Source: Palleronia rufa
Lineage (GTDB): Bacteria > Pseudomonadota > Alphaproteobacteria > Rhodobacterales > Rhodobacteraceae
DNA length: 52,491 bases
NCBI RefSeq assembly: GCF_000743715.1
Contig: NZ_JQEY01000001.1
Span: 782,081-834,571 of the forward strand
Direction: 5' to 3'
Made by a program: the position numbers and the translations under genes. Positions 27,603 through 50,850 of this stretch are shown here, piece by piece (position 1 is the stretch's first letter; each line of letters begins with the position of its first letter). Under the pieces are notes generated by a model. That model did not search any database. It was not told the DNA's origin and worked only from the letters and a program-made list of their open reading frames with translations.

Positions 27603-27830
27603 TTTGGTTGCGGGAGCATGCAACTCACGATTTCTGCGATTGGTCGAGAGCGTGGTCCCGCGGCTTGTGGCGTAGAATTGGCAAGCGAGGCGAAAAAAGG
27701 TGCGGGTTAAGCGATTTCAACTTTCTTGCATACAGAGGAGCCCGCCGATACGCCCTGTGCACATGATCCGCACACGCGAACGGCCCGAAGGTCTCTGACG
27801 CCTTGGGTTTCGGTCCGACCCTCCAAGAGC
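27603..27830 (-). repeat. tRNA 3'-end repeat with arm, copy A (possible att site)
   Basis: On the minus strand 27618-27605 reads TGCTCCCGCAACCA, the acceptor end of an initiator-tRNA-like sequence (E. coli tRNA-fMet ends CCCCCGCAACCA), and a terminator follows. The body of a tRNA is missing. Instead the plus-strand sequence from 27617 (GCATGCAACTCACGATTTCT) continues for at least 90 bp, with about 89 percent identity to 50620-50709. A later part (27761-27806) matches 49414-49460. A tRNA end plus an element-specific arm is the structure expected at an island junction. Confidence 0.6.
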
Positions 27831-27968
27831 GCCATCCGTGCGTTTCTAAGTGAATACAATTGCAAGCTGAACAGAATAGAATTGGGGTCGCGCTTCCCGC
27901 GGTTTCCTCAATATGGTATATCCATTCGGCTGGCCGCAAGAATTGCGGCCAGCCCTTCTGCGCCTCGC
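27831..27968. other. short spacer before mmsA stop
   Basis: No gene is seen. A 115-codon minus-strand frame covering 27625-27972 runs through the tRNA-end repeat and is not accepted. CTGGCCGCAA and TTGCGGCCAG at 27931-27953 form an inverted repeat close to the mmsA stop, which is a likely terminator for that gene. Confidence 0.5.
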
Positions 27969-29468
27969 TCATCCCATCGTTGGCATGACGAATTCGGCGG
28001 CGGCCCGCACGCCGGACGGCCAGCGGGTAGTGATGGTCTTCAGACGGGTGTAGAAGCGCACGCCCTCCGGCCCGTGCATGTGGTGGTCACCGAAAAGCGA
28101 CTGCTTCCAGCCGCCGAAGGAGTGGAAGGCCATCGGCACCGGGATCGGAACGTTGACGCCCACCATTCCGACCTCGATATCGTGCGCGAAGGTCCGCGCC
28201 GCATCGCCGTCGCGGGTAAAGACCGCGACACCGTTGGCGTAGTCGTGGGCATGGATCAGGTCGACCGCCTCAGCGTAGTCCTTGCGGCGCACGATCGACA
28301 GGACGGGCCCGAAGATCTCTTCCTTCCAGACGGACATGTCGGGCCTGACGCCGTCGATCAGGGTCGGTCCCACGAAGAAGCCGTTCTCGTAGCCTTGCGG
28401 CGGGGTGAAGCCGCGGCCGTCGACGACGATCTTCGCGCCTTCCGCTTCGCCCTTGTCGATAAGCCCCAGGATTTTCTCCTGTGCGGCCCGCGTCACGACC
28501 GGGCCCATCTCGGACGCGCGGTCCGCGGCCGGGCCGACCTTCAGCGCCTCGATCTTTGGAACCAGTCGTTCGATCAGCGCGTCGGCCACCTGATCGGTCA
28601 CCGGCACCGCGACCGAGATCGCCATGCAACGTTCGCCGGCCGACCCGTAGGCCGCCCCCATCAGGGCGTTGGCCGCCATGTCGAGGTCCGCGTCGGGCAG
28701 GATGACCATGTGGTTCTTTGCACCGCCGAGCGCCTGCACGCGCTTGCCGTTCCTCGTGCCCGTCTCGTAGATGTACTTCGCGATCGGGGTGGAGCCGACG
28801 AAGCTGATCGCCTTGACTTCGGGATGGGTCAGGAGCGTGTCGACCGCCTCCTTGTCGCCTTGCACAACGTTGAACACGCCGTCCGGCAGGCCCGCTTCGG
28901 TCAGCCATTCGGCGATCAGGAGCGACGCCGACGGGTCACGTTCCGACGGCTTGAGGATGAAGGTGTTGCCGCAGGCGAGCGCGACCGGGAACATCCACAT
29001 CGGCACCATGGCCGGGAAGTTGAAGGGCGTGATGCCGGCGACGACGCCCAGAGGCTGACGCAGCGAGTGGCTGTCGACCGCGGTTCCGACATTCTCGGTG
29101 ATCTCGCCCTTGAGGAGATGCGGTGCGCCGACGGCGAACTCCACCACCTCGAGACCGCGGGTGACCTCGCCGAGCGCGTCGTCATGAGTCTTGCCGTGCT
29201 CGGCCGAGATCGCTTCGGCAAGTTGGTCGCCGCGCTCCCACAGGATCATCTTGAACCGATCTAGGATGCGCGCCCGGCGCAAGGGCGGGGTCTTGGACCA
29301 CTTGGCCCAGGCCGCGTGCGCCGAAGTGATGGCCGTCTCGACTTCTTCCCGCGAGGCGAGCGCGACGGTCTTTTCCGCTTCGCCGGTGGCAGGGTCGGTC
29401 ACGGGCTGGCTGCGGCCCGATGTCCCGGCCACGCGGGCGCCGTCGATGTAATGGGCGATCTCGGTCAT
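27969..29468 (-). CDS. mmsA: methylmalonate-semialdehyde / malonate-semialdehyde dehydrogenase (CoA-acylating)
   Basis: The 499-residue aldehyde dehydrogenase starts [18 protein letters not shown]. It has the MmsA/IolA features: [20 protein letters not shown], the NAD-binding [13 protein letters not shown], the nucleophilic cysteine in [14 protein letters not shown] (about residue 285) and [12 protein letters not shown]. It converts malonate semialdehyde to acetyl-CoA and CO2, the last step of inositol breakdown, and also serves valine breakdown. It is divergent from a LysR gene (80-bp spacer) rather than in the main iol operon, so it may be separately controlled. In inositol context it is also called iolA. 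Confidence 0.95.
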
Positions 29469-29548
29469 GGTATCCTCCTTCGGTTGCAGTTGCCCTCTAT
29501 ATCGCTCATTCGTTTCGGCATATAAATCGCCACAAAAGGCAATCCGTT

Positions 29549-30460
29549 ATGCAGAATCGAGTAAACAGCCGTAAGCCCCTGGATTGGGACGATGCGCGCC
29601 ACTTCCTGGCCGTGGCACGCGAGGGGCAGATGCTGGGCGCGGCGCGGCGTCTCGGAATCAGTCAGGCAAAGCTCAGCCGCCGCATCGCCGCTCTCGAGGC
29701 GGCCATGGGCGCGCGCCTTCTGGACCGCACGACGCGCGGCTCGACCATGACCGAGACGGGGCGCGCGCTGTTCGCCGCGGCCGAACGGATGGAAGCCGAA
29801 ATGCTCGGTGTGCTCGACTCTGCCAGCGGGCTGAACGATGTGGCGGGTACCGTGCGGATCGGGGCGCCGGACGGCTTCGGCGGCGCGTTCCTCGCTCCTC
29901 GGCTCGCCGACTTGCGCGAGGAGTTTCCGGCGCTTCGCATCCAGCTTGTGCCGGTGCCGCGCAGCTTCTCGCTGTCCGAACGCGAGGCTGACATCGCGAT
30001 CATGGTGGGACGTCCCGACAAAGGGCGCCTGCGCGTCCGGCGGCTGACCGACTATACGCTCGGGCTTTACGCATCGAAGGGGTACGTCGCGAGGCGGGGG
30101 CGGCCGGACAGCGTTGCGGACCTGCGGGCGCATGATCTTGTCGGCTACGTGGACGACCTAATCTACACGCCCGAGCTGAACTATGCCTCGGACATCCTTT
30201 CGGATTGGCGGTCGAACATCGAGGTGGCGACCGCGATCGGACAGGTCGAGGCGGTTTGCGCGGGCGCCGGGATCGGCGTGCTGCACGATTTCATGGTTGC
30301 CGGATTGGATCTCGAACCGCTGCTTCCGGATGTCCGGGTGGAACGCAGCTACTGGACGGTCTGGCACGAGAACCTGAAGACGGACCGCCGGGTTCAAGCG
30401 GTGGTCAATTTCCTCGACCAGACCGCGCGGGCCGAACGCGCTCTGTTCGTTCGCGCTTAA
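29549..30460 (+). CDS. LysR-family transcriptional regulator
   Basis: The 303-residue regulator has an N-terminal winged HTH (DWDDARHFLAVAREGQMLGA through QAKLSRRIAALEAAMGARLL, about 11-65) and a periplasmic-binding-like effector domain. The ATG at 29549 is preferred because upstream sequence in frame overlaps the mmsA promoter. It is transcribed away from mmsA with an 80-bp shared spacer, the classical layout for a LysR protein that controls its divergent neighbour. Its target is thus probably mmsA. The inducer is unknown. It ends 12 bp from the iolB stop (convergent). Confidence 0.9.
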   Translation: MQNRVNSRKPLDWDDARHFLAVAREGQMLGAARRLGISQAKLSRRIAALEAAMGARLLDRTTRGSTMTETGRALFAAAERMEAEMLGVLDSASGLNDVAGTVRIGAPDGFGGAFLAPRLADLREEFPALRIQLVPVPRSFSLSEREADIAIMVGRPDKGRLRVRRLTDYTLGLYASKGYVARRGRPDSVADLRAHDLVGYVDDLIYTPELNYASDILSDWRSNIEVATAIGQVEAVCAGAGIGVLHDFMVAGLDLEPLLPDVRVERSYWTVWHENLKTDRRVQAVVNFLDQTARAERALFVRA

Positions 30461-30471
30461 TGGAGCGCCGT

Positions 30472-31278
30472 TTACGCGTCGCGCTCCATGATCCACTCGA
30501 CTTCGGGCGCGGGCACGAAGCGCCACTTTCGCAAGGGGCCGGCCATCACGTTGAGGTAGTACATCTCGAACCCGTAGGGCGCGCCGCAGGGATGGTGTCC
30601 GCGGGGCACGAGCACGACATCGCCATCCGCAACCGCCATGGTCTCGTCGAGCCCGCCATCGTCGGTGTAGACACGCTGGATGCCGAACCCCGAGGCTGGG
30701 TTGAGCCGGTGGTAATAGGTCTCTTCGAGGTAGGTGATGCGAGGGAAGTCGTCCTCGTCGTGCCGGTGGCTGGGATAGGACGACCAGTGGCCTGCGGGCG
30801 TGAAGACCTCGGTCACCAGCAGGCTGTCGCAATAATCCTCTGCCTCCATCGCGATGTTGTTTATGTGGCGGGTATTGGTGCCCTTGCCGCGTTCGGTGAG
30901 GATGATGCCGTCCGGGCCGATGCGGCGTGCTTCGTGACCGCCCTTCCCCGGCGCCGAGCAGACCGCGATCACGCAGTCGGTCTCGGCCAAGGCCTGCCAG
31001 TCGGTGCCGTTCGGCAGGTAGAGGCAATGGGGCGGCGTCTTTTCGAACACGTTCATCCGCTCGCCCAAGACGCCCCAGTCTTGGCCGGCGCCGGTGATGG
31101 CGGCCTTGCCCTCGACCATCACCAGGATGACCTCGCGATCGCCCGTGGCCTCGGCGGCCGTCTCGCCCGCACGCAGACGGTAGAGAGAAAAGCCGACATA
31201 GCGCCAGCCGGCCGATTGCGGCGTGATCTCGTGGACCTTGCCATGCGTTCCGAAGGGTTTTCTCTGCAGGTCGGTCAT
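30472..31278 (-). CDS. iolB: 5-deoxy-glucuronate isomerase
   Basis: The 268-residue double-cupin enzyme converts 5-deoxy-D-glucuronate to 2-deoxy-5-keto-D-gluconate in the inositol pathway. Metal-site residues are visible in SYPSHRHDEDDFP and LEETYYHRLNP, and the HHPCGAPYGFEMYYLNVMAG block near the C-terminus is typical of IolB. The length fits the family. It is the last gene of the long minus-strand operon and its start overlaps the stop of a small membrane-protein gene by 4 bp. Confidence 0.95.
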   Translation of the reverse strand: MTDLQRKPFGTHGKVHEITPQSAGWRYVGFSLYRLRAGETAAEATGDREVILVMVEGKAAITGAGQDWGVLGERMNVFEKTPPHCLYLPNGTDWQALAETDCVIAVCSAPGKGGHEARRIGPDGIILTERGKGTNTRHINNIAMEAEDYCDSLLVTEVFTPAGHWSSYPSHRHDEDDFPRITYLEETYYHRLNPASGFGIQRVYTDDGGLDETMAVADGDVVLVPRGHHPCGAPYGFEMYYLNVMAGPLRKWRFVPAPEVEWIMERDA

Positions 31279-31490
31279 CGATCGTCCTCGCGGTCGCGTC
31301 CCCGCGCCCGGGCCTTGGGGGACAGGAAGAATTCATAGAGGCACCAGAGCCCGAGCGCGCCGAAGAGGATCGCCCAGAACACCGCGCCGGTGATCAACTC
31401 GAACAGCGCCCAGCCCAGGCAGAGCGCGACGATCAGCCCTCGCCGCCAGGCGGGGGCAAAGAAGGGATGGTCTGGATCAAACAGTTTCAT
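31275..31490 (-). CDS. 71-aa membrane protein within the iol operon
   Basis: The product begins MKLFDPDHPFFAPAWRRGLI and has two closely spaced hydrophobic helices (about 18-34 and 37-53) and a basic C-terminal tail (SPKARARGRDREDD). It resembles short DUF3329-like inner-membrane proteins that are scattered through Rhodobacteraceae genomes. It overlaps iolE by 14 bp and iolB by 4 bp, so it must be translated from the same message. A role in inositol use is suggested only by position: it could equally be a generic membrane protein captured in the operon. Confidence 0.8.
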   Translation of the reverse strand: MKLFDPDHPFFAPAWRRGLIVALCLGWALFELITGAVFWAILFGALGLWCLYEFFLSPKARARGRDREDDR

Positions 31491-32388
31491 GTGCAGTATC
31501 GAGACCGACCTCGACCGCCATCCGCTTCAGCGAACGCAGCCCGAGAGCCTGGTAGTGTTTGGGGTCGCGCACCGCGCTGTCCTGTTCCGCCTCGATCACG
31601 AGCCAGCCGTCGTAGCCGTGTTCGCCAGCGATCTTCAGAACCGGGCCGAAATCAACCGCGCCCTCGTCGTCACCGGGCACGGTGAAAGCGCCACGCCGCA
31701 CACCTTCGAGGAAGGACAGGCCCTGTTCGCGAACCTCCTGCGCGATATCTGGACGGACGTTCTTGCAGTGGATGTGGCTCACGCGGTCCATGTATTTCCG
31801 CGCAATCTCGGCCGGATCGGCACCTCCAAACCACGCGTGACCAGTATCGAGCAGCAGGCGCGTCTCGGGGCCCGCCATCTTCATGAAGCGGTCGATGTCC
31901 TCTGCGCTTTCGATGATCGTGCCCATATGATGGTGATAGCCCATCTTGATGCCAAGCTCATGAGCATAAGCCGACAGCGCCTCGTAGCCCTTCGAGAAGC
32001 GGTCCCATTCGGCGTCAGTCATGATTGGGCGGTCGTTAACCGGGGTTCCGTCGCTGCCATGTACCGTGTTCGAGCACTCGCAAGCATTGATGTGGTCGCC
32101 GCCAGCCGCCTTGGTAAATGCGATCCACTCTTTCAGGCGGGCCTTCTCGGTCTCGATGTCGTTTGTCAGGATGTTGGTCGAAAACCAGCCAGCGGCGAAT
32201 CGCAGGCCATAGGCTCCGAGCGCGTGCTTCAGCTCCGTGCCGTCGTCGGGCATCTTGTGCCCCTTCTCGATGCCGTCGAAACCGATCTCGCGGCAATCGC
32301 TCAGGCAGTCGTCGAGGCTCAGGTGATCGCCGATCGACCAGTCGTCGTCATTGGACCAGGCGATGGGGTTTGTGCCGTAAAGGATCAT
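31477..32388 (-). CDS. iolE: myo-inosose-2 dehydratase
   Basis: The 303-residue TIM-barrel enzyme dehydrates 2-keto-myo-inositol to the trione (diketo) intermediate. It starts MILYGTNPIAWSNDDDWSIG. Metal and substrate ligands appear in KMGYHHHMGT, LLLDTGHAWFGGADP, VSHIHCKNVRPD and GWLVIEAEQD, all in the usual IolE order. A longer upstream frame to 32520 is rejected because family members start at the MILYG-type sequence, and aggatc/gggaga precedes it. It lies 22 bp after iolD and is clearly part of the operon. Confidence 0.96.
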   Translation of the reverse strand: MILYGTNPIAWSNDDDWSIGDHLSLDDCLSDCREIGFDGIEKGHKMPDDGTELKHALGAYGLRFAAGWFSTNILTNDIETEKARLKEWIAFTKAAGGDHINACECSNTVHGSDGTPVNDRPIMTDAEWDRFSKGYEALSAYAHELGIKMGYHHHMGTIIESAEDIDRFMKMAGPETRLLLDTGHAWFGGADPAEIARKYMDRVSHIHCKNVRPDIAQEVREQGLSFLEGVRRGAFTVPGDDEGAVDFGPVLKIAGEHGYDGWLVIEAEQDSAVRDPKHYQALGLRSLKRMAVEVGLDTAHETV

Positions 32389-32410
32389 GGTAAGTCTCCC
32401 GAAGGACAGA

Positions 32411-34240
32411 TCAGTTGAAGGTTCTCTGAAGCGCCGCGTTCGCGTTGTAGCGTCCGCGCGCATCGTCCAGCCGGTCGGGCCCGCCAGTCTGTGGCACGGC
32501 CACATCCCACCAGTGGCCACCGGCCCCAGTTCCGGGCACGGCGTCGGTCTCGATCAGGATCACGCTCGGGACGTCGCGGCTGCGGGCCTCGACGATCTTG
32601 CGCTCCAGGTCGGCGATGTCGGCGGCTTTCTCGGCATGGGCGCCCATGGACGCGGCGTGGGCCACGAAGTCGATCTTCGGCCAGACGTCGCTGTCCTTGT
32701 ACATGTTGTTGAACTCGGCCCCGCCGCATTCGATCTGAAGGCGATTGATGCAGCCATAGCCCGCATTATCGGTCAGCACGACGGTGAAGGGCACCTTCCG
32801 CGCAGCCGCGGTGGCAAGCTCGGAATTGGCCATCATGTATGAGCCGTCACCGACGAAGCAGATCACCTCCTTCTCCGGTGCGGCGAGCTTGATGCCCATC
32901 GCACCCGCGACCTCGTAGCCCATGCAGGAATAGCCATATTCCATGTGATATCCGCCATGCGCGGCCTGCCAAAGGACTTGCAGCGCACCGGGCATTGTGC
33001 CGGCGGCGCACATCGCAACGGTCGTGTCCTGCGCCACGCGCTGGACCGCGCCGATCACCTGTGCGTCGGTGGGCGATGCGTTGGTGTCGGGCTCCGGCGC
33101 CGCGGTGACGCGGCCGACCTCGGCGATCCAGTCCTCGCGTGCCGACGGATCATGCGCGTCGAAGCGCAGAGCGCCAAGTGCTGCGGTCAACTTCTCGAGC
33201 GCGACTTTCGCGTCGGAGACGAGCGGCGTCGCAAGGTGCTTGGACGCGTCGTAGGGATGCAGGTTGATCGATACGAGCTTGCGCCCCTCGCGGCCGAAAA
33301 CCGTCCACGAGCCGGTGGTGAAGTCCTGGAAACGCGTGCCGACCCCGATGACAAGGTCCGCCTTTGCCGCCAGTTCGTTGCCGCAGCCCGATCCGGTCAC
33401 GCCCGGCGAGCCGAAGTTCAGCTTGTGGCTCGCGGCGATGCCACCCTTCCCGGCCTGGGTTTCCAGCACGGGAATGTTGTGGGTTTCGGCGAAAGTCCGA
33501 AGTATTTCGTCGGCTCCGGAATAAAGCACGCCCCCGCCTGACACGATCACCGGGCACTCGGCCTCGGCGATCATCCGGGCGACGTCGGCCAACTCGCGCG
33601 GATCGGGCTCCGGTCGCCGAATGCGCCATGTGTGCGGCGTGAAGAAGTCCTCGGGGTAATCGAATTCCTCGGCCTGCACATCCTGGCAGAAGGCGAGCAC
33701 GGCGGGGCCGCAATTCTGCGGATCGGTCATCATCGCCATCGCGCGCGGTAGCGCGGTCAGCAGATGTTCGGGCCGCGAGATGCGATCGAAATAACGCGCG
33801 ACCGGCCGGAAGCAGTCGTTCGCCGAGACCGTTCCGTCGTCGAAATCCTCGATCTGCTGGAGCACGGGGTCGGGGCGCCGGTTTGCGAAGACATCGCCGC
33901 AGATCATCAGGACGGGCAGTCGGTTCACATGCGCCAGCCCGCAGGCGGTGACCATGTTGGTCGAGCCCGGCCCGATGGAAGAGGTGATGGCCATCGCCTT
34001 CCGCCGCCGTTTGGTCTTGGCATAGGCGATGGCTGCGTGGGCCATGGTCTGTTCGTTCTGTCCGCGCCACGTCAGGATATCGTCCCGGTACCGATGCAGC
34101 GCCTCGCCGATACCGGCGACATTGCCGTGGCCGAAGATGGCCCAGACACCTTCGATGAAGCGCTCGCCCTCTTCCGTCATCTGGACCGAGAGCCATTTCA
34201 CCATGGCCTGCGCGGCCGTGAGCTTGATCGTGTTGGTCAT
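32411..34240 (-). CDS. iolD: 3D-(3,5/4)-trihydroxycyclohexane-1,2-dione acylhydrolase
   Basis: The 609-residue ThDP enzyme opens the ring of the trione to give 5-deoxy-D-glucuronate. The N-terminal pyrimidine-binding domain has WAIFGHGNVAGIGEAL with the activating Glu, and SSIGPGSTNMVTACGLAHVN. The ThDP diphosphate/Mg site is CFVGDGSYMMANSELATAAA (GDG to N). It begins MTNTIKLTAAQAMVKWLSVQ. The start overlaps the iolC stop by 4 bp, implying coupled translation. Length and motifs are complete. Confidence 0.97.
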   Translation of the reverse strand: MTNTIKLTAAQAMVKWLSVQMTEEGERFIEGVWAIFGHGNVAGIGEALHRYRDDILTWRGQNEQTMAHAAIAYAKTKRRRKAMAITSSIGPGSTNMVTACGLAHVNRLPVLMICGDVFANRRPDPVLQQIEDFDDGTVSANDCFRPVARYFDRISRPEHLLTALPRAMAMMTDPQNCGPAVLAFCQDVQAEEFDYPEDFFTPHTWRIRRPEPDPRELADVARMIAEAECPVIVSGGGVLYSGADEILRTFAETHNIPVLETQAGKGGIAASHKLNFGSPGVTGSGCGNELAAKADLVIGVGTRFQDFTTGSWTVFGREGRKLVSINLHPYDASKHLATPLVSDAKVALEKLTAALGALRFDAHDPSAREDWIAEVGRVTAAPEPDTNASPTDAQVIGAVQRVAQDTTVAMCAAGTMPGALQVLWQAAHGGYHMEYGYSCMGYEVAGAMGIKLAAPEKEVICFVGDGSYMMANSELATAAARKVPFTVVLTDNAGYGCINRLQIECGGAEFNNMYKDSDVWPKIDFVAHAASMGAHAEKAADIADLERKIVEARSRDVPSVILIETDAVPGTGAGGHWWDVAVPQTGGPDRLDDARGRYNANAALQRTFN

Positions 34241-36150
34241 GCGACCACCTCCTCCTTCGCGCCTGCGCGGGCGTCGTCCCAGATGCGGCAGAGCCGCGTA
34301 TAATTGTCGGCCATGGTCGCAATCGCATCGACGTCGTCAATCAGGCCTGCCATCCAGTCGCGAGCCACCTGGCCGAAGACGGTTCTGCCAACGGCAAATC
34401 CCCGGACCAGCGGGAACGAGGCCGCCAGCCGGAAGCTTTCGGCCAACTCGGCCTCGGGCGCATCAAGGCCCAGCACCACGATGCCGCGCGTCCGCGGGTC
34501 GTGGCGCTCAATCGCGGCGACGGCGTTCTGCCAGGCGGTGCGGGTCCTGAACGGCTCGAGCTTCCACCAGTCGGGATAAACTCCCGCGTCATAGAACGTC
34601 TGGATCAGTTTCGCGGAGGTCTCGTCGTCGACGGGGCCGACTTTCGACGGGATGATCTCCAGCAGGAACTCGAGGTTGTTGCGCCGCGCGGCCGTGAACA
34701 GCCGTTTGACCCGTGCGACTTGCATGCCTGCCGTCTTGTCGTCGTCGTCCGGGTGGCAGAACACCAGAAGCTTCACGACATTCTCCTTGGCCCACTCGCG
34801 CAGCCCGCCGAGATCATCACCCAGCTCCGGCTCGAACTCGATGGGACGGGATCCAGGAAGCTCCGTCGGCCTGCCGATCCAGAGCCCGGTTCCCGATGCC
34901 TTGTGCAGGGCTGAGCGGCCGATACGGTTGTCGCAAAGGATGCCGTAGCCCGGTCGCCCGTCTTGCACCCGAAGCGCAGCGTCAAGGCACAGCTCCTTGA
35001 AGGCCGACCCCTTTGCCAGGGTGTAGCCCTCCATCTCCTCGAGCTGCACGCGGTGATCGAAGGCGAAGGTCTTGACCGAGGTACAGTCGCCCGCGCGGTT
35101 CGTGGCCCAGTGAACCTGTTCGAGGTCCACATCATTGCGAAGGTCCGGCCGCACGATGCCCCGCTCGAAGAAGAACTGCAGCTCCTCCCACGACGGGTAG
35201 GCCGGGGTGCAGCCGTGACGCGAGACGGCGAAGGCGCCGCAGGCATTGGCGTATTTCAGTGCTGTCGGCCAGTCCTCACCGTCGAGCCAGCCCTTCAGAA
35301 GGCCCGACATGAAGCCGTCCCCGGCGCCCAGCACGTTGAAGACCTCGATGGGGAAGCCTGGGCCGGTCTGGCCATCGTCGAGGCTGCCCGGAATGTCGCC
35401 TTCGAAGGCCGAGGCCCCCATCGGACCGCGCTTGCAGACGAGCGTCGCGCCCGAGACCTTGCGTACCGCGCGCAGCGCCTCAATCGTATCGGTCGAGCCG
35501 CCGGCGATGTGGAATTCCTCTTCGGTGCCGACGATCAGGTCGAAGTAATGCAGGCTTTCCTGAAGCTTGGCCGTGACGGCCGCGCTTTCGACGAAGCGGC
35601 TCTCTCCTTCGCCGTGGCCGGCGACACCCCAGAGGTTCGGACGGTAATCGATGTCGAGCGCGGTCTGCAGTCCGGCCTCACGTGCGATCTTCAGTGCCTT
35701 GAGCGTCGCTGCTTCGACCTTGGGATGTGACAGGTGCGTGCCGGTCGCCACCACCGCGCGGGCGCTGCGAATGAAACTCTCGTCAATGTCCTCCTCGGTC
35801 AGGCCCATGTCGGCGCAATCAGACCTGTAGAAGATCAGCGGGAACTGCTCCTGGTCGCGGATGCCCAGAAGGACGAGCGCCGTCAGCCTGTCGGGATCGA
35901 CCTTCACGCCATCGGTGTTCACACCTTCGCGGGCCAGTTGTTCAGTGATGAAGCGGCCCATGTGCTCGTCGCCGACGCCTGTGATGACGGCCGACTTCAG
36001 CCCCAGCCGCGCCGTCCCGCAGGCGATGTTGGTGGGCGAGCCGCCGATATACTTGGAAAACGACCCCATATCCTCGAGCCGTCCGCCGATCTGATCGCCG
36101 TAAAGGTCGACCGAGGACCGACCGATTGTGATGACATCAAGGGTCTTCAT
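34237..36150 (-). CDS. iolC: 5-dehydro-2-deoxygluconokinase fused to DUF2090 domain
   Basis: The 637-residue fusion has an N-terminal PfkB sugar kinase (about 1-325) with IGGSPTNIACGTARLG and the catalytic/anion loop NVLGAGDGFMSGLLKGW. It phosphorylates 2-deoxy-5-keto-gluconate. The C-terminal half (about 330-637) is DUF2090, a TIM-barrel related to class I aldolases, with LLVFCHPDDDD and EIIPSKV. In many alpha- and gammaproteobacteria this domain is fused to IolC and is suspected to supply the IolJ aldolase step. No separate iolJ gene is seen in the window, which supports that idea. Start MKTLDVITIGRSSVDLYG. Confidence 0.96.
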   Translation of the reverse strand: MKTLDVITIGRSSVDLYGDQIGGRLEDMGSFSKYIGGSPTNIACGTARLGLKSAVITGVGDEHMGRFITEQLAREGVNTDGVKVDPDRLTALVLLGIRDQEQFPLIFYRSDCADMGLTEEDIDESFIRSARAVVATGTHLSHPKVEAATLKALKIAREAGLQTALDIDYRPNLWGVAGHGEGESRFVESAAVTAKLQESLHYFDLIVGTEEEFHIAGGSTDTIEALRAVRKVSGATLVCKRGPMGASAFEGDIPGSLDDGQTGPGFPIEVFNVLGAGDGFMSGLLKGWLDGEDWPTALKYANACGAFAVSRHGCTPAYPSWEELQFFFERGIVRPDLRNDVDLEQVHWATNRAGDCTSVKTFAFDHRVQLEEMEGYTLAKGSAFKELCLDAALRVQDGRPGYGILCDNRIGRSALHKASGTGLWIGRPTELPGSRPIEFEPELGDDLGGLREWAKENVVKLLVFCHPDDDDKTAGMQVARVKRLFTAARRNNLEFLLEIIPSKVGPVDDETSAKLIQTFYDAGVYPDWWKLEPFRTRTAWQNAVAAIERHDPRTRGIVVLGLDAPEAELAESFRLAASFPLVRGFAVGRTVFGQVARDWMAGLIDDVDAIATMADNYTRLCRIWDDARAGAKEEVVA

Positions 36151-37032: not shown

Positions 37033-37044
37033 GACGAGGCCCCC

Positions 37045-38091: not shown

Positions 38092-38101
38092 TCCGTGATC
38101 C

Positions 38102-39941: not shown

Positions 39942-39952
39942 GGTATCCTCCC

Positions 39953-41029: not shown

Positions 41030-41116
41030 GATCTCGACCCTCCTCCTTCGGATGTACGAATTGGCTCGGCAGGTCCCGGGCGCGTCGGCGACGCACCCGG
41101 GGTGATCCAACACGGA

Positions 41117-43488: not shown

Positions 43489-44505
43489 TCAGCAATTCTC
43501 ACGAGTGTGGATGCGGACTGGCGTGATCGTGGTCATGGGGCCGGTCTCGAGGCGTCCGAAACGTTCGGCCAGCGCCTCGACCGAGATCCGCAACTCTAAG
43601 TCGGGGTTCTGATCGATGATCGCGTCGATGGCACCGGCGCGCAGCAGACGGCGACGATCCTCGGTCAGCTCATGGGTGATGAACACACATCGGTCCCGAT
43701 CAGGCACGCGAGCCAGCGCCTCGGCGATTTCGGCCGCACCCGCCGAGGCGTTGTAGACACCGCAGAGGTCCGGGTGCCGCGCAAGCGTCCACGCAACAAG
43801 TAGCCCGGCCCTCTCGCCGTTCTCCCCACTTTCAACCTCCTCCACAATTTCGACTTCGGGGAAATCCTCGGTGATCGCGGCGCGAAACCCTTCGCGCCGC
43901 TGTCTCTGCCCGATCATCGACATCATCCCGGCTATGAGAAGCACTTTGCCGCCCTCACGGCCCAGAAATCGGCCCATCAGGTGTCCAGCAACCCTCCCAG
44001 CGCGGTAGTCGTCCGGTCCGACGTAGATATGGGGAACATCAGGCCCGAAATCCGTGGCGAGCGCGACTACAGGCTTGTCCGTTGCCGCGAAGCTACGCAA
44101 GGCAACGACGATCTCGGGATCTTCGGCTGCGCAGATGATCAACGCGTCGAAGCGGGCGGCTGTCTCTTGGATTGTCCGCGCCGTGCGGCTCGGTGCGGCA
44201 GGATCGACATGCAGCACGGAAAGCTCGAAGTTGAACGGGTTTGGGCCCCGGTTCTGGCGCTCGGCGGCCTCTGCCAACGCCGCGTGGAACGGGTTCGATG
44301 GTGGCTGCACGAATACACCGATCCTGAGCGTGCGCGCGGCGCGGAATTCGAGCGCACGGTCGAGCTTCAGCCGCCGCGCCGCGAGCACCACGCGTCGCTC
44401 TTTCTCGGGCGCGACGCCGCCACGATTGTTCAGCACCCTGTCCACGGTCGCCAGCGACACGCCTGCCTCCCGGGCGACGTCGCGTGCGGTCGCCTTTGAT
44501 CTCAT
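43489..44505 (-). CDS. LacI-family transcriptional regulator, second copy
   Basis: This 338-residue paralogue starts MRSKATARDVAREAGVSLAT with the HTH at about 6-26 and the hinge VDRVLNNRGGVAPEKERRVV. The effector domain shows IGVFVQPPSNPFHAALAEAA, DALIICAAEDPEI, VGPDDYRAGRVAGHLMGRFL and GVYNASAGAAEIAEAL. It diverges from the iolG2 operon with a palindrome in the 116-bp spacer, so it or its neighbour regulates that operon. Its stop lies 70 bp from the first LacI gene on the same strand. Confidence 0.92.
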   Translation of the reverse strand: MRSKATARDVAREAGVSLATVDRVLNNRGGVAPEKERRVVLAARRLKLDRALEFRAARTLRIGVFVQPPSNPFHAALAEAAERQNRGPNPFNFELSVLHVDPAAPSRTARTIQETAARFDALIICAAEDPEIVVALRSFAATDKPVVALATDFGPDVPHIYVGPDDYRAGRVAGHLMGRFLGREGGKVLLIAGMMSMIGQRQRREGFRAAITEDFPEVEIVEEVESGENGERAGLLVAWTLARHPDLCGVYNASAGAAEIAEALARVPDRDRCVFITHELTEDRRRLLRAGAIDAIIDQNPDLELRISVEALAERFGRLETGPMTTITPVRIHTRENC

Positions 44506-44621: not shown

Positions 44622-45641
44622 ATGATCAAACTCGCCTGTTTCGGCGCGGGCCGCATCGGCCAGGTTCACGCGCTAAACGCCGCGGCAACGCTCGGCGCGA
44701 CCCTTTCCTACATCGTCGATCCGGTCGCGGGCGCGCATGCAGAAGAACTTGCAACTCGCACCGGTGCGAGTCTTACCGACGCCGATACCGTCTTCGCAGA
44801 CGCCACTGTCGACGGCATCATCATCGCAAGCTCGACCGACAGCCACGCCCCGCTTCTTCTGCGGGCGGCCGAGGCGGGAAAGGCTGTGTTCTGCGAAAAG
44901 CCCGTCAGCCTCGATTTCGCGCAGGTGGCCGAAGCCACTCAGGCGGTCGAAGCGTCCGGCATCGCCTGCATGCTGGGCTTCCAGCGTCGCTACGACCCGA
45001 GCTTCCGGCAGGTTCGGGATCGCGTCCTCAGCGGCGCGGCTGGCAGGCTCGAGCATGTCGCGATGGTCTCCCGCGATCCGACGCCGCCGTCCGCCTCCTA
45101 CGTGCGCACCTCGGGCGGCATGTTCCGGGATACCGCCATCCACGACATGGACATGTGCCGCTTCCTGCTGGAGGAGGATGTCGCGACGGTCTACGCGACC
45201 GGATCGTGCCTGATCTCGCCGGAGATCGGCGAGGCCGGCGACATCGACACCCTGATGATCACGCTGACGACCGTCTCGGGCCGCATGGCACAGGTGATCA
45301 ACTGCCGGCGCGGGCCGTTGGGCTACGACCAACGGCTTGAGGCGCTTTGCGAGCACGAGGTGCTGTTCGTGGACAACAAGCCGGCATCGAGCGTTCGCAT
45401 CGCTCGCCCGGACGGCAGCACCGCTGCTCCTCCAATGAATTACTTCATCGAACGTTTCGCGGACGCCTATCGCGACGAGATGACGGCCTTCGTGGACCTC
45501 ATCCGCGACAGCACGCCGGCACTCACGACCATCCGCAACGGCTTCGAGGCGCAGCGGCTGGTCGAGGCCGCCATCGTCTCGGCCGGGACCGGCCAGGCGG
45601 TTGCCTTCGGCCCCGACTGGATGCCGGAGGCCGCGTCGTGA
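44622..45641 (+). CDS. inositol 2-dehydrogenase, IdhA type (Gfo/Idh/MocA), second copy
   Basis: The 339-residue dehydrogenase has the Rossmann start MIKLACFGAGRIGQVHALNA, the lysine motif VFCEKPVSLDFAQVAEA, the QRRYDPSFRQVRDRV segment, the catalytic DTAIHDMDMCRFLL Asp/His pair and the late NYFIERFADAYRDEMTAFVD. This resembles the rhizobial IdhA/IolG branch rather than the Bacillus-type IolG at 37045. Its substrate may be myo-inositol or another isomer. A gggagga site precedes the ATG. It opens a four-gene plus-strand operon in which every junction overlaps by 4 bp. Confidence 0.9.
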   Translation: MIKLACFGAGRIGQVHALNAAATLGATLSYIVDPVAGAHAEELATRTGASLTDADTVFADATVDGIIIASSTDSHAPLLLRAAEAGKAVFCEKPVSLDFAQVAEATQAVEASGIACMLGFQRRYDPSFRQVRDRVLSGAAGRLEHVAMVSRDPTPPSASYVRTSGGMFRDTAIHDMDMCRFLLEEDVATVYATGSCLISPEIGEAGDIDTLMITLTTVSGRMAQVINCRRGPLGYDQRLEALCEHEVLFVDNKPASSVRIARPDGSTAAPPMNYFIERFADAYRDEMTAFVDLIRDSTPALTTIRNGFEAQRLVEAAIVSAGTGQAVAFGPDWMPEAAS

Positions 45642-46540
45642 GCCTGCCGGAAGCCGTGCGCCTGGGCGTCAGCCCGCTCTCATGGATCAACGAAGTTATC
45701 GAGGAGTTCGGCCGCGATACACCGGCTGAAAACTGCCTGCGCGAGGCGGCGGAAGCCGGCTACGCCGGCGTTGAGACAAGCCGCAAATTCCCGACCGATC
45801 CCGCCGTACTGACAGACCTGCTGGACAGCTTCGGGCTGGATCTGGCTTCCGGCTGGCATTCAGGACGGCTGGCCGAGGACGGCGTCGAGGCCGAGATGGC
45901 GGCCGTTGCGGATCACGCCCGTCTGCTGTCCGCGATGGGATGCAAGGTCATGGTCTACGGCGAGACCGCGATGATGGCCGCTGGCGACCCGCTGGATGTG
46001 GGCATGTCGGCCCGTCGGATCATGTCCGAAGGCGACATGCCCGCCTACGCGCAGCGCCTGACCGACTTCTCCCACCGTCTGATAGAAGAACATCGCCTCC
46101 GGCTTGCCTACCACCACCACCTGATGATGGTGGCCGAAACCGGCGACGAGATCGACAGGCTGATGTATCACGCGGGTCCAGAGGTGGGCCTCCTGCTCGA
46201 CACGGGCCACGCGGTCGCGGGCGGCGTCGATTACACCCGGCTGATCGAGCGGCACGGCGACCGGGTGGCGCATATCCACCTCAAGGACGTGCGCAGGCAG
46301 GTCTTCGACCGCGTCCGTCGCGCGGACCTCAGTTTCAACGCGGGCGTGCGTGCGGGCATGTTCACGGTTCCCGGCGACGGCGATCTCGATTTCGGGCCGC
46401 TCGCCCGCTTCGTCGAGGACAGCGGCTATGCGGGCTGGCTCGTCGTGGAGGCTGAGCAGGACCCCGCGCTTGCGCCCCCCTTCCCCGCGGTCCGCCGCGC
46501 GCACGCCCACGTCACGAGCCTCTTCGGAGACGGACAATGA
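45638..46540 (+). CDS. IolE-like inosose dehydratase paralogue
   Basis: A 300-residue TIM barrel is predicted from a GTG start (VSLPEAVRLGVSPLSWINEV) that overlaps the iolG2 stop (GTGA). It shows the IolE blocks: GYAGVETSRKFP, LAYHHHLMMVAETGDEIDRL, GLLLDTGHAVAGGVDY, VAHIHLKDVRRQVFDRV, GMFTVPGDGDLDFGPL and GWLVVEAEQDPALAPP. The metal ligands are conserved as in the iolE at 31477. It likely dehydrates a different inosose or polyol ketone. The pairing with a second dehydrogenase suggests a parallel route for another isomer. Confidence 0.88.
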   Translation: MSLPEAVRLGVSPLSWINEVIEEFGRDTPAENCLREAAEAGYAGVETSRKFPTDPAVLTDLLDSFGLDLASGWHSGRLAEDGVEAEMAAVADHARLLSAMGCKVMVYGETAMMAAGDPLDVGMSARRIMSEGDMPAYAQRLTDFSHRLIEEHRLRLAYHHHLMMVAETGDEIDRLMYHAGPEVGLLLDTGHAVAGGVDYTRLIERHGDRVAHIHLKDVRRQVFDRVRRADLSFNAGVRAGMFTVPGDGDLDFGPLARFVEDSGYAGWLVVEAEQDPALAPPFPAVRRAHAHVTSLFGDGQ

Positions 46541-47718
46541 CACAAAAGACCATCAATATCGGCCTCATCGGCTCGGGTTTCATGGGGCAGGCTCATGCAG
46601 ACGCGTTCCGCCGCGCTGCGATGCTCTATCGCGACCTGCCTCGCGTGCCGCATCTGTCGATGCTGGCCGATGCCAGTGCTGATCTGGCCGAAAGCGCTGC
46701 CTCCCGCCTCGGGTTCGAACGGCACACCGGCGACTGGCGCGCGCTGGTCGAGGATCCCGAGATCGACGTGGTCGACATCACATCGCCCAATGTCCTGCAC
46801 CACGAGATGGCGCTGGCCGCCATCGACGCAGGCAAGCACGTCTATTGCGAAAAGCCGTTGTCGGTCACTGTCGTCGAGGCCGAAGAGATGACCGCCGCCG
46901 CGGAGGCGAAGGGCGTGAAGACCATGGTGGCCTTCAACAACGTCAAGACGCCCGCGGCCATGCTCGCCAAGCAGCTCATCGAGCGGGGCGAGATCGGCAC
47001 GCCCATGCGGTTCCGCGGCTGGTTCGATCAGGGCTTCTTCAACGACCCCGATCTGCCGTTCTCGTGGCGTTGCACCCGCAAGGAGGCGGGTTCAGGCGCG
47101 CTCGGCGATCTGGGCAGCCACGTGATTTCGGTCGCGCAATACCTGATGGGGCCGGTCGAGAGCACCATCGCCCAGGCCCAGACCTATTTCCCGACACGTC
47201 CCATTCCGCAAGGCGCGGCCAGCTACAGCGCGAAGGCCGCCGCCGACTCGCCCCGGCGAGAGGTCGAGAACGAGGATCAGATCCAGGCGCTCGTCCGCTT
47301 TGCGAGCGGAGCGGGCGGCACGATCGAGGCGAGCCGCGTGTCCGCCGGCAAGGTCTTCGGTATCTCGTGGGAGGTCTCGGGCACCGAGGGCACGATCCTG
47401 ATGGACGGCGAGCGGTTTAACGAACTGAAAGTCTCGCGCTTCGGTGATCCGAAACCCGACCGGGGGTTCAAGACGCTTCTCGCGGGCAGCCAGGTCCCGC
47501 AATTCTCGGCCTTCTTCCCGTTCGATTTCGCCGGCGGAGGGCTGGGATACTTCGACGTCAAGGTGATCGAGGTCCGCGACCTCATTTCGGGCCTCTGCGC
47601 GGGGCAGGACTGCGATCCGAACTTCGCGTTCGGCCTTGAGAACATGCGCATCATGGATGCGATGGAACGCTCCGTACAAACCCGCGCCTGGCAAGCTGTG
47701 GCAGGAGAAACCGAATGA
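46537..47718 (+). CDS. Gfo/Idh/MocA oxidoreductase (long, inositol/sugar dehydrogenase-like)
   Basis: The 393-residue protein is longer than the other dehydrogenases here. It has INIGLIGSGFMGQAHADAFR, the lysine motif VYCEKPLSVTVVEAEEM and the GALGDLGSHVISVAQYLMGP catalytic His region. It ends with a long C-terminal domain containing FENMR-like LENMRIMDAMERSVQTRAW. The layout fits the scyllo-inositol / L-glucose dehydrogenase branch of the superfamily, but the substrate is not certain. Start and stop both overlap neighbours by ATGA, so it is co-translated. Confidence 0.85.
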   Translation: MTQKTINIGLIGSGFMGQAHADAFRRAAMLYRDLPRVPHLSMLADASADLAESAASRLGFERHTGDWRALVEDPEIDVVDITSPNVLHHEMALAAIDAGKHVYCEKPLSVTVVEAEEMTAAAEAKGVKTMVAFNNVKTPAAMLAKQLIERGEIGTPMRFRGWFDQGFFNDPDLPFSWRCTRKEAGSGALGDLGSHVISVAQYLMGPVESTIAQAQTYFPTRPIPQGAASYSAKAAADSPRREVENEDQIQALVRFASGAGGTIEASRVSAGKVFGISWEVSGTEGTILMDGERFNELKVSRFGDPKPDRGFKTLLAGSQVPQFSAFFPFDFAGGGLGYFDVKVIEVRDLISGLCAGQDCDPNFAFGLENMRIMDAMERSVQTRAWQAVAGETE

Positions 47719-48734
47719 CCTTCCCGACCGAATTGCCGACATCCCGCATCCCTGATCCGATGGAGGCCCCTGCTTTGCGATGGGGGATCCTGGGCACCGG
47801 TTGGATCGCCGACCAGTTCATCCGCTCCGTCCGCGCACATACACGGCAGGAGATTGCGGCTGTCGGCTCGCGCAACCAGGACAGTGCCGACGCCTTCGCC
47901 GCCCGTCAGAAGATCGAGACGGCGCATGGCAGCTACGACGCACTCGTCAGGGATGACAGTCTCGACGTGATCTACGTGGCAACGCCGCACAACCATCACC
48001 GCGACCACGTGATGCTGGCGCTCGAGGCCGGGCGGAACGTGCTGGTCGAAAAACCGATGGCGCTGGATCATCCACAGGCGGCCGAGATGGTGGCGCTGGC
48101 CCGGAAGAAGGGGCTGTTCCTGGCCGAGGCCCTCTGGACCTATTTCCTGCCGAAGTTCGATGTGCTTGACCAGATCGTCGCTTCCGGCGCGCTTGGCGAG
48201 ATCAAGTCGATCCATACCGAATACGGCGAATACTTCACCCGCGATCACCGCATCTTCCGACCCGACCTCGCGGGCGGGCCACTTTACGATCTGGGGACCT
48301 ATCCCATCTCGCTCCTGAACCGGCTTATGGGGGTGCCGACGAGGGTCGTCGGCATGAAGCAGGACGATGAAAGTGGCGTCCACGGGCAGCTTTCGGTAAT
48401 CCTGTCGGACGCCCACGGCAACCAGGGAACAATGTCGACGACGCTTTATGGTCTAACCCCGACAAATGCCGCAATCGTAGGCACCGGCGGCACTGTGCGC
48501 TTCGGCAGCGAATTCAACCTGCCCGGCCCGTTCGAGGTGCTGTCCGCCGATGGCTCGATCCGACTGCACTACGAGGAGACCCCCGGCCGCCATTTCGAAG
48601 GGCTGTACTACGAGGCCGCCGAGGTCGCCCGCGCCATCGCGACGGAGCAGACGGAGACGCCTAAGCGTCCGCTGGATGCAACCCTCGACATGATGCAGAC
48701 CCTCGACCTCATACGCCGGGAGCTGCACATATGA
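47715..48734 (+). CDS. Gfo/Idh/MocA oxidoreductase
   Basis: The 339-residue dehydrogenase has an N-terminal extension (MTFPTELPTSRIPDPMEAPA) before the Rossmann WGILGTGWIADQFIRSV. It also shows VLVEKPMALDHPQAAEMV, FLAEALWTYFLPKFDVL, EYGEYFTRDHRIFRP and the DLGTYPISLLNRLMG region, where the usual catalytic His of DxGxH is Tyr. This pattern is found in the dihydrodiol/1,5-anhydrofructose-type branch. It is the last gene of the operon, and its substrate is unknown. An internal ATG at 47760 (MEAPALRWG) is an alternative start. Confidence 0.84.
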   Translation: MTFPTELPTSRIPDPMEAPALRWGILGTGWIADQFIRSVRAHTRQEIAAVGSRNQDSADAFAARQKIETAHGSYDALVRDDSLDVIYVATPHNHHRDHVMLALEAGRNVLVEKPMALDHPQAAEMVALARKKGLFLAEALWTYFLPKFDVLDQIVASGALGEIKSIHTEYGEYFTRDHRIFRPDLAGGPLYDLGTYPISLLNRLMGVPTRVVGMKQDDESGVHGQLSVILSDAHGNQGTMSTTLYGLTPTNAAIVGTGGTVRFGSEFNLPGPFEVLSADGSIRLHYEETPGRHFEGLYYEAAEVARAIATEQTETPKRPLDATLDMMQTLDLIRRELHI

Positions 48735-48844: not shown

Positions 48845-49255
48845 TCACCGCGCGACCTTTGCTCCGGTCGCGCGCCGGACCAGATCGACGAAAACACCGA
48901 ACGGTCGGGCAAGAATAATCATGAACAGGATTGCTGAGCCGATCGCGGTGAGGGCCTGCGCAACGGTCGCGCCTGCAATCAGGAGCGTCGCACCGTAGAC
49001 CGGAACCTGAAACGCAAGGAAGGCGCCAACATCTGTCGCTACCGCCACCATACGAGCCTGCGGTCGTACCCTCGAGAAAAGCCAGTCGCGCCACCGGGTG
49101 TAGGGTCGTCCCGTGAGGATCATGATCGGTACCATGACAAGGCGCGTCGTCAAAACCTCAGACGCATCCATGCCCGCAATGACGAACTCGGAAAACGTTG
49201 CGAACACGGTGAAAAAGAAGATCGTCGAAAGCGTATCAACTACCAAGGTTCGCAT
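48845..49255 (-). CDS. alaE: L-alanine exporter
   Basis: The 136-residue inner-membrane protein has four predicted helices and the AlaE family pattern: MRTLVVDTLSTIFFFTVFAT, FSEFVIAGMDASEVLTTRLV, the GRPYTRWRDWLF loop and LARPFGVFVDLVRRATG. AlaE lowers internal L-alanine. It is slightly shorter than the E. coli protein. It is convergent with the last dehydrogenase (110-bp spacer) and lies outside the inositol operons. A tRNA-end-arm fragment and IS5 sequence follow on the other side. Confidence 0.88.
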   Translation of the reverse strand: MRTLVVDTLSTIFFFTVFATFSEFVIAGMDASEVLTTRLVMVPIMILTGRPYTRWRDWLFSRVRPQARMVAVATDVGAFLAFQVPVYGATLLIAGATVAQALTAIGSAILFMIILARPFGVFVDLVRRATGAKVAR

Positions 49256-49413
49256 GGCAATTAGCTATCATTGTCAGGCGGATAGTCAAGTTGCGGAAGG
49301 ACACCGGTCGAGGCCCGTCAGGGCCAAGACCTGAAGGCGGCGGCATGATCAACAGGCAAACTTAGCAACGCCGCAAATCTGTCCGGGAAACGGGGATCAC
49401 CTAAACCCTGCGG

Positions 49414-49460
49414 ACATGATCCGCACACACAAATGGCCCAAGCCTATCTGACGCCTTGGG
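49414..49460 (+). repeat. fragment of the island arm repeat, copy C
   Basis: The 47 bp starting ACATGATCCGCACAC match 27761-27806 of copy A at about 83 percent and in the same orientation. The copy is cut at 49463 by the terminal repeat of an IS5-family element. It therefore marks the far side of the inositol island. Confidence 0.55.
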
Positions 49461-49462: not shown

Positions 49463-50282
49463 GGCATTATTGCACGAAGCCTGCCCGGGATTCACATCGT
49501 GAGTCCAGCGATATAGCAGGGCGGCATGTCCAAGCCCGCACCTATCCCCTACCGCACCCTGAACTGGTCGTCGGCGCTGCATGGACGCGGATCGCTGACC
49601 GTCTGGTTCGATCCGTCGATGCCGTGGCACGCTGCGTCGTAGGGCAAGCGCGGCGCGCAGCCGGTCCACAGCGACGCTGCGATCCAGGCTTGCCTGGCGG
49701 TGAAGGTCCTGTTCGGGCTCCCGCTTCGACAGACGACCGACTTCATGGCGAGTTTGCTGAAGCTGGCTGGTCTCGACTGGTCGGTGCCGGATTTCTCGAC
49801 GCTGTGTCGGCGACAGAAGACCTTGGCCGTGCAACTGCCCTACCGCGGTTCGGGCGGGCCGCTGCTCCTGCTCGTAGACAGCACTGGCATCAAGGTTCGC
49901 GGCGAAGGGGAGTGGCACGCGCAAGCATGGTGGGGCCAAGCGGCGCGTGTGGCGCAAGGTGCACCTCGCCGTCGACGAGAGCACGCTCGAGGTCCGGGCA
50001 GTCGAGTTCACCGGTAGCACCGTGGGCGATGCGCCGATGCTGCCCGCCCTGTTGTCACAGATCCCCAGGGACGAGCCGATCGCCTCGGTGACCGCCGACG
50101 GCGCTTATGACGGTCGCACCTGCCGCGACGCCATCGCAGACCGGAACGTTCATGAAATCTTCCCGCCGCGCCGCAACGCCAAGCCTTGGAAGAGGGGCAG
50201 CCCCGGTGCGGGGGCGCGGAACGAGCCTCTCCGCTTCATCAAACGCTTCGGCCGAACGCTTCGGCGGAAGTGGTCCGGCTAT
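49463..50282 (+). pseudogene. IS5-family element and transposase, broken
   Basis: The left terminal repeat GGCATTATTGCACGAAGC (49463-49480) matches 14 of 18 bases of the terminal repeat at 52246. The transposase begins at 49526 (MSKPAPIPYRTLNWSSALHG). It has an in-frame TAG at 49640, and continues with SDAAIQACLAVKVLFGLPLR, VPDFSTLCRRQKTL and LVDSTGIKVRGEGEWHA. It shifts frame near 49922, then resumes with RKVHLAVDESTLEVRAVEFT and SVTADGAYDGRTCRDAIA. It is cut off after RKWSGY at about 50282. The last 60 residues and right end are missing. Confidence 0.85.
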
Positions 50283-50502
50283 GGGCACCGTAATTCTTTC
50301 GGTTCAGGAGGATGATCAGGACCGCAGAGTAGAACAGCCCTGTACCACGGGCCGAATTGCCTGCGACGCAGCACGAAATCGCGCGATTAGAGCATGAACA
50401 TAGGATGCACACGACGCCGTGCAACTTCATGAAATAAAATCAAAATCGCGACCATCCATCACAAGAACGACGCCAATTGGCCGCCGTTCTACTCCGTCAC
50501 AG

Positions 50503-50540
50503 TTGGTTGCGGGGTGATTTGCACCTACGGGTCTAGGTCA
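50503..50540 (-). repeat. tRNA-like 3' end without body
   Basis: Read on the minus strand 50524-50504 gives GGTGCAAATCACCCCGCAACC plus the final A. This looks like a T-arm and acceptor end of an initiator tRNA (GGTTCAAATC...CCCCGCAACCA in E. coli tRNA-fMet). Nothing resembling a D-arm, anticodon arm or 5' acceptor strand is present, so this is not a tRNA gene but a possible att remnant. Confidence 0.5.
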
Positions 50541-50580
50541 TTGATATTGCTTAGGTTGATTGGGCGGCGATATCTCGCTA

Positions 50581-50619
50581 CCCCCCAAGACACTGAAATC
50601 AATATGGTTTCTTGAGGGG
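50581..50619 (-). terminator. stem-loop downstream of copy B tRNA end
   Basis: CCCCCCAAGA (50581-50590) pairs with TCTTGAGGGG (50610-50619) with one mismatch. On the minus strand it follows CCGCAACCA directly, the position of a tRNA terminator, as at copy A. No T run follows. Confidence 0.5.
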
Positions 50620-50850
50620 TTTGGTTGCGGGGGCTTGCAACTCACGATTTCTGCGGTTGGTCGAGAGTGTGGTGCCGCGGCTTGCCGCGTAGAATTGGAA
50701 GGCGCGGCGTGCATGGGACGGTTGGCGTCTTTCCAGGCTTGGCGCCTGAAAAGGTGCGAAAGTCTTGCCGTGCACACGGGTCGCACATGAGAGATGCCCA
50801 AACGCCTCATATCACTTTTGCTTCGGTCCCTTCCTCCAAAGAATATGGGG
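50620..50850 (-). repeat. tRNA 3'-end repeat with arm, copy B (possible att site)
   Basis: The minus strand at 50634-50622 reads GCCCCCGCAACCA, the end of an initiator-tRNA-like sequence. The following 90 bp on the plus strand (50620-50709) match copy A with 80 of 90 bases identical by hand count, in the same orientation. Farther on (to about 50850) only short blocks (GTCGCACATGA, TCGGTCC, CCTCC) still agree. Confidence 0.6.

Follow-up and report, generated by a model that had tools for sequence, protein, structure and literature searches.

A probable cis-mobilizable inositol catabolism island bounded by ends of a serine recombinase island family at tRNA-fMet in Palleronia rufa

The closest precedent for the locus described here, a 23-kb inositol catabolism block (A-B) within a 52,491-bp stretch of the Palleronia rufa draft genome (the window; contig NZ_JQEY01000001.1, positions 782,081 to 834,571), is provided by the tmRNA-gene islands of Dehalococcoides. 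In the published description of these ssrA islands the gene for the serine recombinase DsiB overlaps the tmRNA gene, and its authors suggest that full function of the gene may require the circle or the proximity of an island that carries the 3′ fragment (PMC3146451). The family to which A-B appears to belong resembles the ssrA islands, as they are portrayed there, in having a large serine recombinase (LSR) at attL whose 3′ end overlaps an RNA gene, in forming tandem islands, and in including islands without an integration module, proposed in Dehalococcoides to be cis-mobilizable; it differs in its target (tRNA-fMet), in its hosts (Alphaproteobacteria), and in that the missing 3′ end is recognisable here, within the attR arm, as a conserved tail whose stop is fixed, together with genes that run through into it (PMC3146451). 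Cis-mobilizable elements (CIMEs) and accretion have already been described (PMC5704250); A-B is like that model, so far as it is outlined in that source, in having no recognised integration or transfer genes, in its apparently retained ends, and in a putative tandem position at the same site, and unlike it in that the proximal end is no standard LSR attL. With Islander-type tRNA islands it shares an intact tRNA on one side, a displaced 3′ fragment on the other, and tandem arrays; the Islander paper (online 2014) holds serine recombinases not known to target tRNA genes, whereas the LSR here appears to do so, with a short core of ~12 bp (PMC4383910), and the relevant passages of a 2025 TIGER/Islander note leave unsettled whether such cases have since been listed (PMC12424338). 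The fMet gene also serves as an integration target in Alphaproteobacteria for phage-related elements of Sinorhizobium meliloti, although, in the account consulted, the integrases there are of the tyrosine type bar one ambiguous case (PMC11476347). Among the literature matches listed, whose coverage left out most subscription papers, we recognised no description of an fMet LSR-island family or of the displaced tail.

An earlier note, made from the letters of the window alone, had proposed an att-bounded island with initiator-tRNA 3′ ends on the minus strand, a shared 90-bp arm, and no attached tRNA body, and these observations hold. Exact minus-strand copies of CCCGCAACCA lie at 27605 (A), 50504 (C), and 50622 (B), with a fourth at 4102; arms A (27603-27692) and B (50620-50709) are identical at 80 of 90 positions in one orientation, and the 92-nt arm is found at only two places in the whole 3.85-Mb draft genome. 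The third arm fragment noticed earlier, D (49406-49460), is 82% identical to 27753-27807, and the arm alignment puts it in the far part of the arm. A tRNA gene search of the window was negative, and the fetched flanks contain tRNA-Arg and tRNA-His but no fMet body. Taken alone, the 10-mer is weak evidence because its 12 window matches with at most one mismatch compare with a shuffled mean of 5.55 (12 being reached in 1 of 100 shuffles); the 9-mer CCGCAACCA likewise occurs at 87 places genome-wide vs 57 for the reversed pattern. The weight of evidence thus lies in the arm and its context, the short tRNA word being modestly above chance. The terminator-like stems seen behind two of the tRNA ends are confirmed at A and at B (−20.7 kcal/mol, z −3.0); the stem at C has z −1.0 and is equalled by 35 of 200 shuffles. 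We rejected C (50504-50530) as a separate element end, as it sits inside the proximal arm of the inositol island, where it resembles a decayed T-arm; the inositol region lies between A and B, not, as the note had it, between A and a C/B pair of ends.

The assembly contains one intact tRNA-fMet gene, on another contig (C8:76484-76560), with what reads as 5S- and 23S-like rRNA sequence upstream. Directly downstream, and hence adjoining the target gene as in an LSR island, although outside the window, is a 549-aa LSR with Resolvase, Recombinase, and Zn_ribbon_recom domains, whose frame enters the fMet gene on the opposite strand and ends inside antisense tRNA (...SLVAGVGFEPTTFRL). Between LSR and fMet stands CGCAGAAATCGT, to which ACGATTTCTGCG of arms A and B corresponds exactly as inverse complement, and this makes A and B the other, attR, halves of that kind of site. 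In the genome the 11-mer CGCAGAAATCG occurs at six places, three of which are the C8 fMet side and arms A and B. Cores A and B supply what an LSR island should show distally, a displaced 3′ end of its target gene, and a core with fMet at the opposite end is seen in Kangsaoukella, in genome G173, and on a Methylosinus plasmid. A (27603) and B (50620) are recognisable as attR-type ends of LSR islands inserting at the 3′ end of tRNA-fMet. A tyrosine integrase gene at C8:68302-69285 was considered as the cause and rejected, there being no link to the arms; it has an arm-binding domain, lies behind a gene whose translation reads as guaA-like, and is ended by an insertion sequence (IS).

The start of the 90-bp arm looks like the 3′ end of an LSR gene that integration has severed. 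All 18 aligned Rhodobacteraceae attR arms have core and arm in common (those of G277 and Aestuariivita are identical and apparently come from one organism) and translate in the LSR frame as VAGAxNSRFLxL..., with a tail close to VAGARNSRFLRLVESVVPRLVA that stops at the same codon (22) in 17 of them, while the first-stop position in the other two frames varies widely. LSR frames continue through the core into the tail in Kangsaoukella LSR2 (into attR1), in N. ostreopsis, and on a Paracoccus aminovorans plasmid, all with LSR domains; N. nitratireducens has the same core-tail layout in a 161-aa piece with no Pfam match, and LSRs akin to these, carried by plasmids of P. versutus and P. denitrificans, cross a similar core into different tails. 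Similar tails are present on Rhizobiales and Rhodospirillales plasmids, and 9 of the 12 read stop at about the usual place; most were found by protein search, which selects for similarity and not for stops (11 of 25 places were read, ten through their own matches and Methylosinus separately, the twelfth tail, from R. leguminosarum, coming from another search). Of the other three, that of R. leguminosarum is not in frame where it meets the core, and those of A. ampelinum and R. ruizarguesonis read on beyond the usual stop. On this evidence integration splits the LSR gene, leaving the body at fMet and the native end at attR; the split is read from the sequences, and it might affect LSR activity. 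At the 11 codons outside the search pattern the synonymous share of differences is 0.43, a value reached in 42 of 2000 column shuffles, whose mean is 0.23; an earlier test on 21 codons, some of which the search pattern partly determines, had given 0.39 vs 0.24 (18 of 1000 shuffles); these counts used 16 and 15 distinct sequences from the 18 arms, with arm D of this genome left out. The argument for a coding tail rests on the shared stop position and the through-running genes, not on the synonymous excess.

The half-site ACGATTTCTGCG, with at most two mismatches, occurs at 28 places in 18 of 394 family genomes, whereas a control pattern matched in five; the 19 places read (A, B, and the attL of this genome included, nine two-mismatch places left out) comprise 13 attR, 5 attL, and 1 that is neither. 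A stricter pattern marks 11 stretches among GTDB genomes, in Jannaschia, Aestuariivita, Kangsaoukella (2), Nioella (2), Roseivivax, Cognatishimia, Thioclava, an uncultured Rhodobacteraceae, and a Roseobacter metagenome-assembled genome; a search of phages with the arm gave no match. Kangsaoukella pontilimi (G332) carries a tandem array in the order fMet, LSR1...attR1 (~73.6 kb), LSR2...attR2 (~49.9 kb), an LSR-less island, and attR3. This array occupies ~134 kb within C3:840001-1000000, and its cargo, named from translations, includes conjugation-, nitrate-respiration-, and GroEL/ES-like genes and arginine-deiminase-like and alternative F-type ATPase-like blocks; at the proximal ends of its LSR islands (C3:845787-845891 and C3:919387-919491) two cores lie 96 bp apart, that is, 32 codons in frame, with the recombinase frame crossing both, and a similar piece is kept outside attR in the Roseivivax, Cognatishimia, and Thioclava arms. 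A complete plasmid of Methylosinus has an LSR whose frame enters a tRNA-Met gene of the plasmid, initiator-like in sequence, with a matching attR ~52 kb away. Within the genus of the window, LSR similarity lies beside the tRNA end at 13 of 25 fMet-type loci, 3 of the 13 being short matches only; a second LSR family, ~38% identical, also abuts fMet ends in the genus (G066, locus L134 13056-14793) and reads the tRNA in another frame.

The proximal and distal ends of A-B, whose cores are 23,017 bp apart, match those of three further islands: Kangsaoukella island 3 (10.8 kb), G173 (10.7 kb, GroEL-like cargo), and G140 (18.2 kb, nar-like cargo), the cargo, of other genes in Kangsaoukella, being named from translations. 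The proximal arm is homologous to sequence adjoining the intact fMet in G173 and G140 and attR2 in Kangsaoukella. That the same end frame encloses exchanged cargo elsewhere is our main reason for calling A-B an island, and the attR/attL family, the Kangsaoukella array, and these parallel islands together support the earlier suggestion of repeated integration of related elements at one tRNA gene. The note saw no integrase gene in the window, and tblastn finds no LSR in A-B, nor in the three matching islands, matches being confined to the two LSR islands; the enzyme would be the LSR on the other contig. The scan of A-B covered the larger genes (small open frames and the transposase remnant were left out), which are metabolic, transport, or regulatory except for one without a match; no conjugation families were found among them, no search aimed at relaxases having been made. 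Of the two ends that a CIME should retain, attR A is clear, and the proximal end consists of core and conserved arm, without the LSR half-site. The features of the region are collected in Table 1; the best iolG model scores 494 bits, under its 540 cut-off, and the ABC transporter matches shown are likewise below model cut-offs. A ~100-bp repeat, GTGATGGATGG...TGTTCATG..., lies at window 50363-50462 and at C1:67945-68063; its neighbours varied in the loci inspected, and it looks like the end of another mobile element. A 201-bp proximal-arm query matches in 25 of 394 family genomes, but in 20 of these the matching parts do not include the tRNA piece, and the repeat alone is therefore no mark of an fMet island.

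Table 1. Features in and around the inositol island, in window coordinates
Feature	Position	Strand	Remarks
rve-type IS outside attR A	26301-27367	-	second copy inverted at C1:836131-837197
Terminator-like hairpin outside attR A, where a tRNA terminator would sit	27555-27602	-	−24.8 kcal/mol, z −3.8; no homologue among loci compared
Core of attR A, = tRNA-fMet 3′ end; left end of inositol island	27603-27614		TTTGGTTGCGGG on +, CCCGCAACCA on -
Distal arm A, ~230 bp, end estimated from alignment	27603-27830	+	partly common to 17 other attR arms
Putative displaced recombinase C-terminal coding end A	27607-27675	+	VAGACNSRFLRLVESVVPRLVA then stop
Half-site ACGATTTCTGCG in arm A	27627-27638	+	inverse complement of fMet-side sequence at C8:76472 (LSR end)
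mmsA (methylmalonate-semialdehyde dehydrogenase), cargo gene nearest attR A	27969-29468	-	TIGR01722
iolB, TIM-barrel isomerase-like gene (31477-32520), iolD, iolC with aldolase domain	30472-36150	-	TIGR04378, TIGR04377, NF047869; PF01261
TIM-barrel isomerase-like genes, iolG-like dehydrogenase, sugar-type ABC transporter (ATPase, permease, binding protein)	36226-42133	-	
Two LacI-type regulators	42387-43418, 43489-44505	-	43489-44505 below its models' cut-offs
Three GFO/IDH/MocA oxidoreductases	44622-45641, 46537-47718, 47715-48734	+	
AlaE-like L-alanine exporter	48845-49255	-	
Truncated third distal-arm copy (D)	49406-49460	+	trace of further element end
Degenerate transposase gene, right part of island	49520-50315	+	69-73% DNA identity to other IS copies in genome
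Proximal arm of LSR-less islands: spacer hairpin, C (50504-50530), repeat arm	50330-50621	-	
Core of attR B, also right end of inositol island	50620-50631	-	
Putative displaced recombinase C-terminal coding end B	50624-50692	+	VAGACNSRFLRLVESVVPRLAA then stop
Putative remnant of next (LSR-type) island: rest of arm B, WYL/HTH regulator (50874-51614, -)	50693-52245		ended by IS from 52246

The window from 3.7 to ~21.7 kb is syntenic with G066. Next in all five relatives compared (of 13 others in the genus) come the nuo genes, nuoD being found here at C1:171005 on the other strand, and in the 13-39 kb beyond that point in the five relatives the window's inositol genes have no match; neighbouring core synteny is thus broken relative to these five. 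In the comparison with relatives suggested earlier, the block is absent from this place in all five, and no precise empty site (A-B absent, with a clean junction exact at GGTTGCGGG) was found. Neither of the outcomes named beforehand as fatal to the island, a conserved syntenic place or an arm without tRNA linkage, was seen: the arm is linked to both tRNA-fMet and a recombinase. iolB is present in 9 of 14 genus genomes, this one included (in G399 and G405 only in pieces), and its distance from this place in G066 and G402 amounts to hundreds of kb. The stretch that separates the core flank from attR A, window 21927-26117, encodes a Mu F-like protein, an Xre/RES toxin-antitoxin-like pair, and a weak RecD-SH3 match below cut-off.

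The IS to the right of B (C1:834326-835375) recurs in the same orientation beside the LSR island, at C8:69262-70311; the two copies are equal at 1047 of 1050 positions, and one of them has N at the other three. Exchange at this IS would put A-inositol-B beside LSR-fMet in the right orientation; the C8 side is rich in ambiguous bases, and misassembly is therefore equally possible. C8 also looks rearranged, since G402, G403, and G405 carry after guaA a block that lies here at C8:10.7-17.4 kb (the block was not seen there in G066, G398, or G394); the original neighbour of fMet was not found in this comparison of the guaA neighbourhood in 6 relatives.

We consider it likely, as a whole account, that A-B is a CIME beside the remnant of an LSR island, the two having later been parted from fMet. 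A tRNA-fMet gene would originally have carried two islands in a row. The one closest to the tRNA would have been an LSR island, surviving here as attR B plus a stub, and the one beyond it the recombinase-less inositol catabolism island, from core B (50622) to attR A (27605). The attP of such LSRs would lie within the 3′ end of their own gene, so that on recombination with the fMet 3′ end most of the gene would stay at attL, ending in antisense tRNA, and the native 22-codon end would be carried to attR as the start of the 90-bp arm. The inositol island would have kept the distal arm, but its proximal arm is a different one and it has no LSR, as would suit a CIME that depends for its movement on a neighbour or on that neighbour's enzyme; a later rearrangement, perhaps IS recombination or misassembly, would have parted the pair from fMet. 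This account draws on the sequence of the ends, the coding tail, the LSR-core-tail genes, the parallel LSR-less islands, and the broken synteny; the recombination activity, order of events, IS exchange, and past mobility that it supposes are inferred.

Several points weigh against this account: i) fMet is on another contig, and both C1 to the right of B and C8 to the left of fMet carry ordinary chromosomal genes, so that a rearrangement or misjoin must be assumed; ii) target duplications that might prove an IS exchange are uninformative, none being usable at the two proposed copies or at three others of the IS group; iii) the outer flank of A matches none of the fMet downstream regions compared, on which ground we rejected the native fMet terminator as that flank; iv) A-B has neither an LSR-type attL half-site on its right side nor a recombinase, and with no precise empty site we can only infer that it was mobile; v) other stretches of the genome span 61.9-70.2% GC, so that the GC content of the island is not decisive; vi) the G116 arm is without the stop; and vii) the synonymous excess is modest, and one antisense frame is as high (0.42).

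We think it unlikely that A and B are true fMet-island ends but the inositol genes resident DNA caught between such scars by IS-driven rearrangement, as might be suggested by the IS copies adjoining A and lying to the right of B, by the transposase remnant and truncated arm D inside A-B, and by iolB in 8 other genus genomes; the same two ends enclose different cargo in three genomes, mmsA lies ~140 bp inside arm A, and the island has 63.6% GC, 6 points under the 69.9% of the left flank. That the conserved arm is instead a DNA signal (an attP arm, or a transfer or replication site) gains something from the ~140 bp of conservation that continue past the stop in many arms and from the modest synonymous excess, but a stop shared by 17 of 18 arms, LSR frames that enter the tail in phase, and the tails on Rhizobiales and Rhodospirillales plasmids make it a quite improbable reading.

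It is very improbable that tyrosine-integrase islands or phages made the tRNA fragments, with the serine recombinase as a bystander. Tyrosine integrases are present in this genome, at least some of the elements described at fMet in Sinorhizobium use them (PMC11476347), and fMet fragments in genus genomes are mostly 38-51 nt (some cut by contig ends), longer than the A/B core; yet the gene abutting the genome's own fMet is an LSR, the LSR similarity at genus fMet-type loci extends to some longer fragments too, and A and B bear the LSR tail. Chance, in the form of short tRNA-like matches beside an unrelated dispersed repeat, can draw on the modest excess of the short tRNA word, but we give it next to no credence and regard it as ruled out, not by that word, but by an arm that has two places in this genome and is found again, joined to the tRNA core, where LSR islands end in several genera.

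If A-B is a CIME of this family, the finding links a catabolic island to a serine-recombinase island family at tRNA-fMet, and it provides sequence evidence for the proposal made for Dehalococcoides, so far as that paper sets it out, that integration cuts the recombinase gene in two and that a neighbouring island may carry its missing end (PMC3146451). We would go further only tentatively: the initiator-tRNA gene might act as a switch for the recombinase, which would have an antisense-tRNA tail when alone at fMet and its native tail restored on the circle or by an adjacent second island, the adjacent-island case being Kangsaoukella LSR2, which reads into attR1. Were this true, tandem accretion would re-arm the enzyme, and cargo islands with no LSR, the inositol block among them, would be mobilised. 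Tail swapping becomes testable, and the orphan tail together with the CCGCAACCA core offers a marker for distal island ends in draft genomes.

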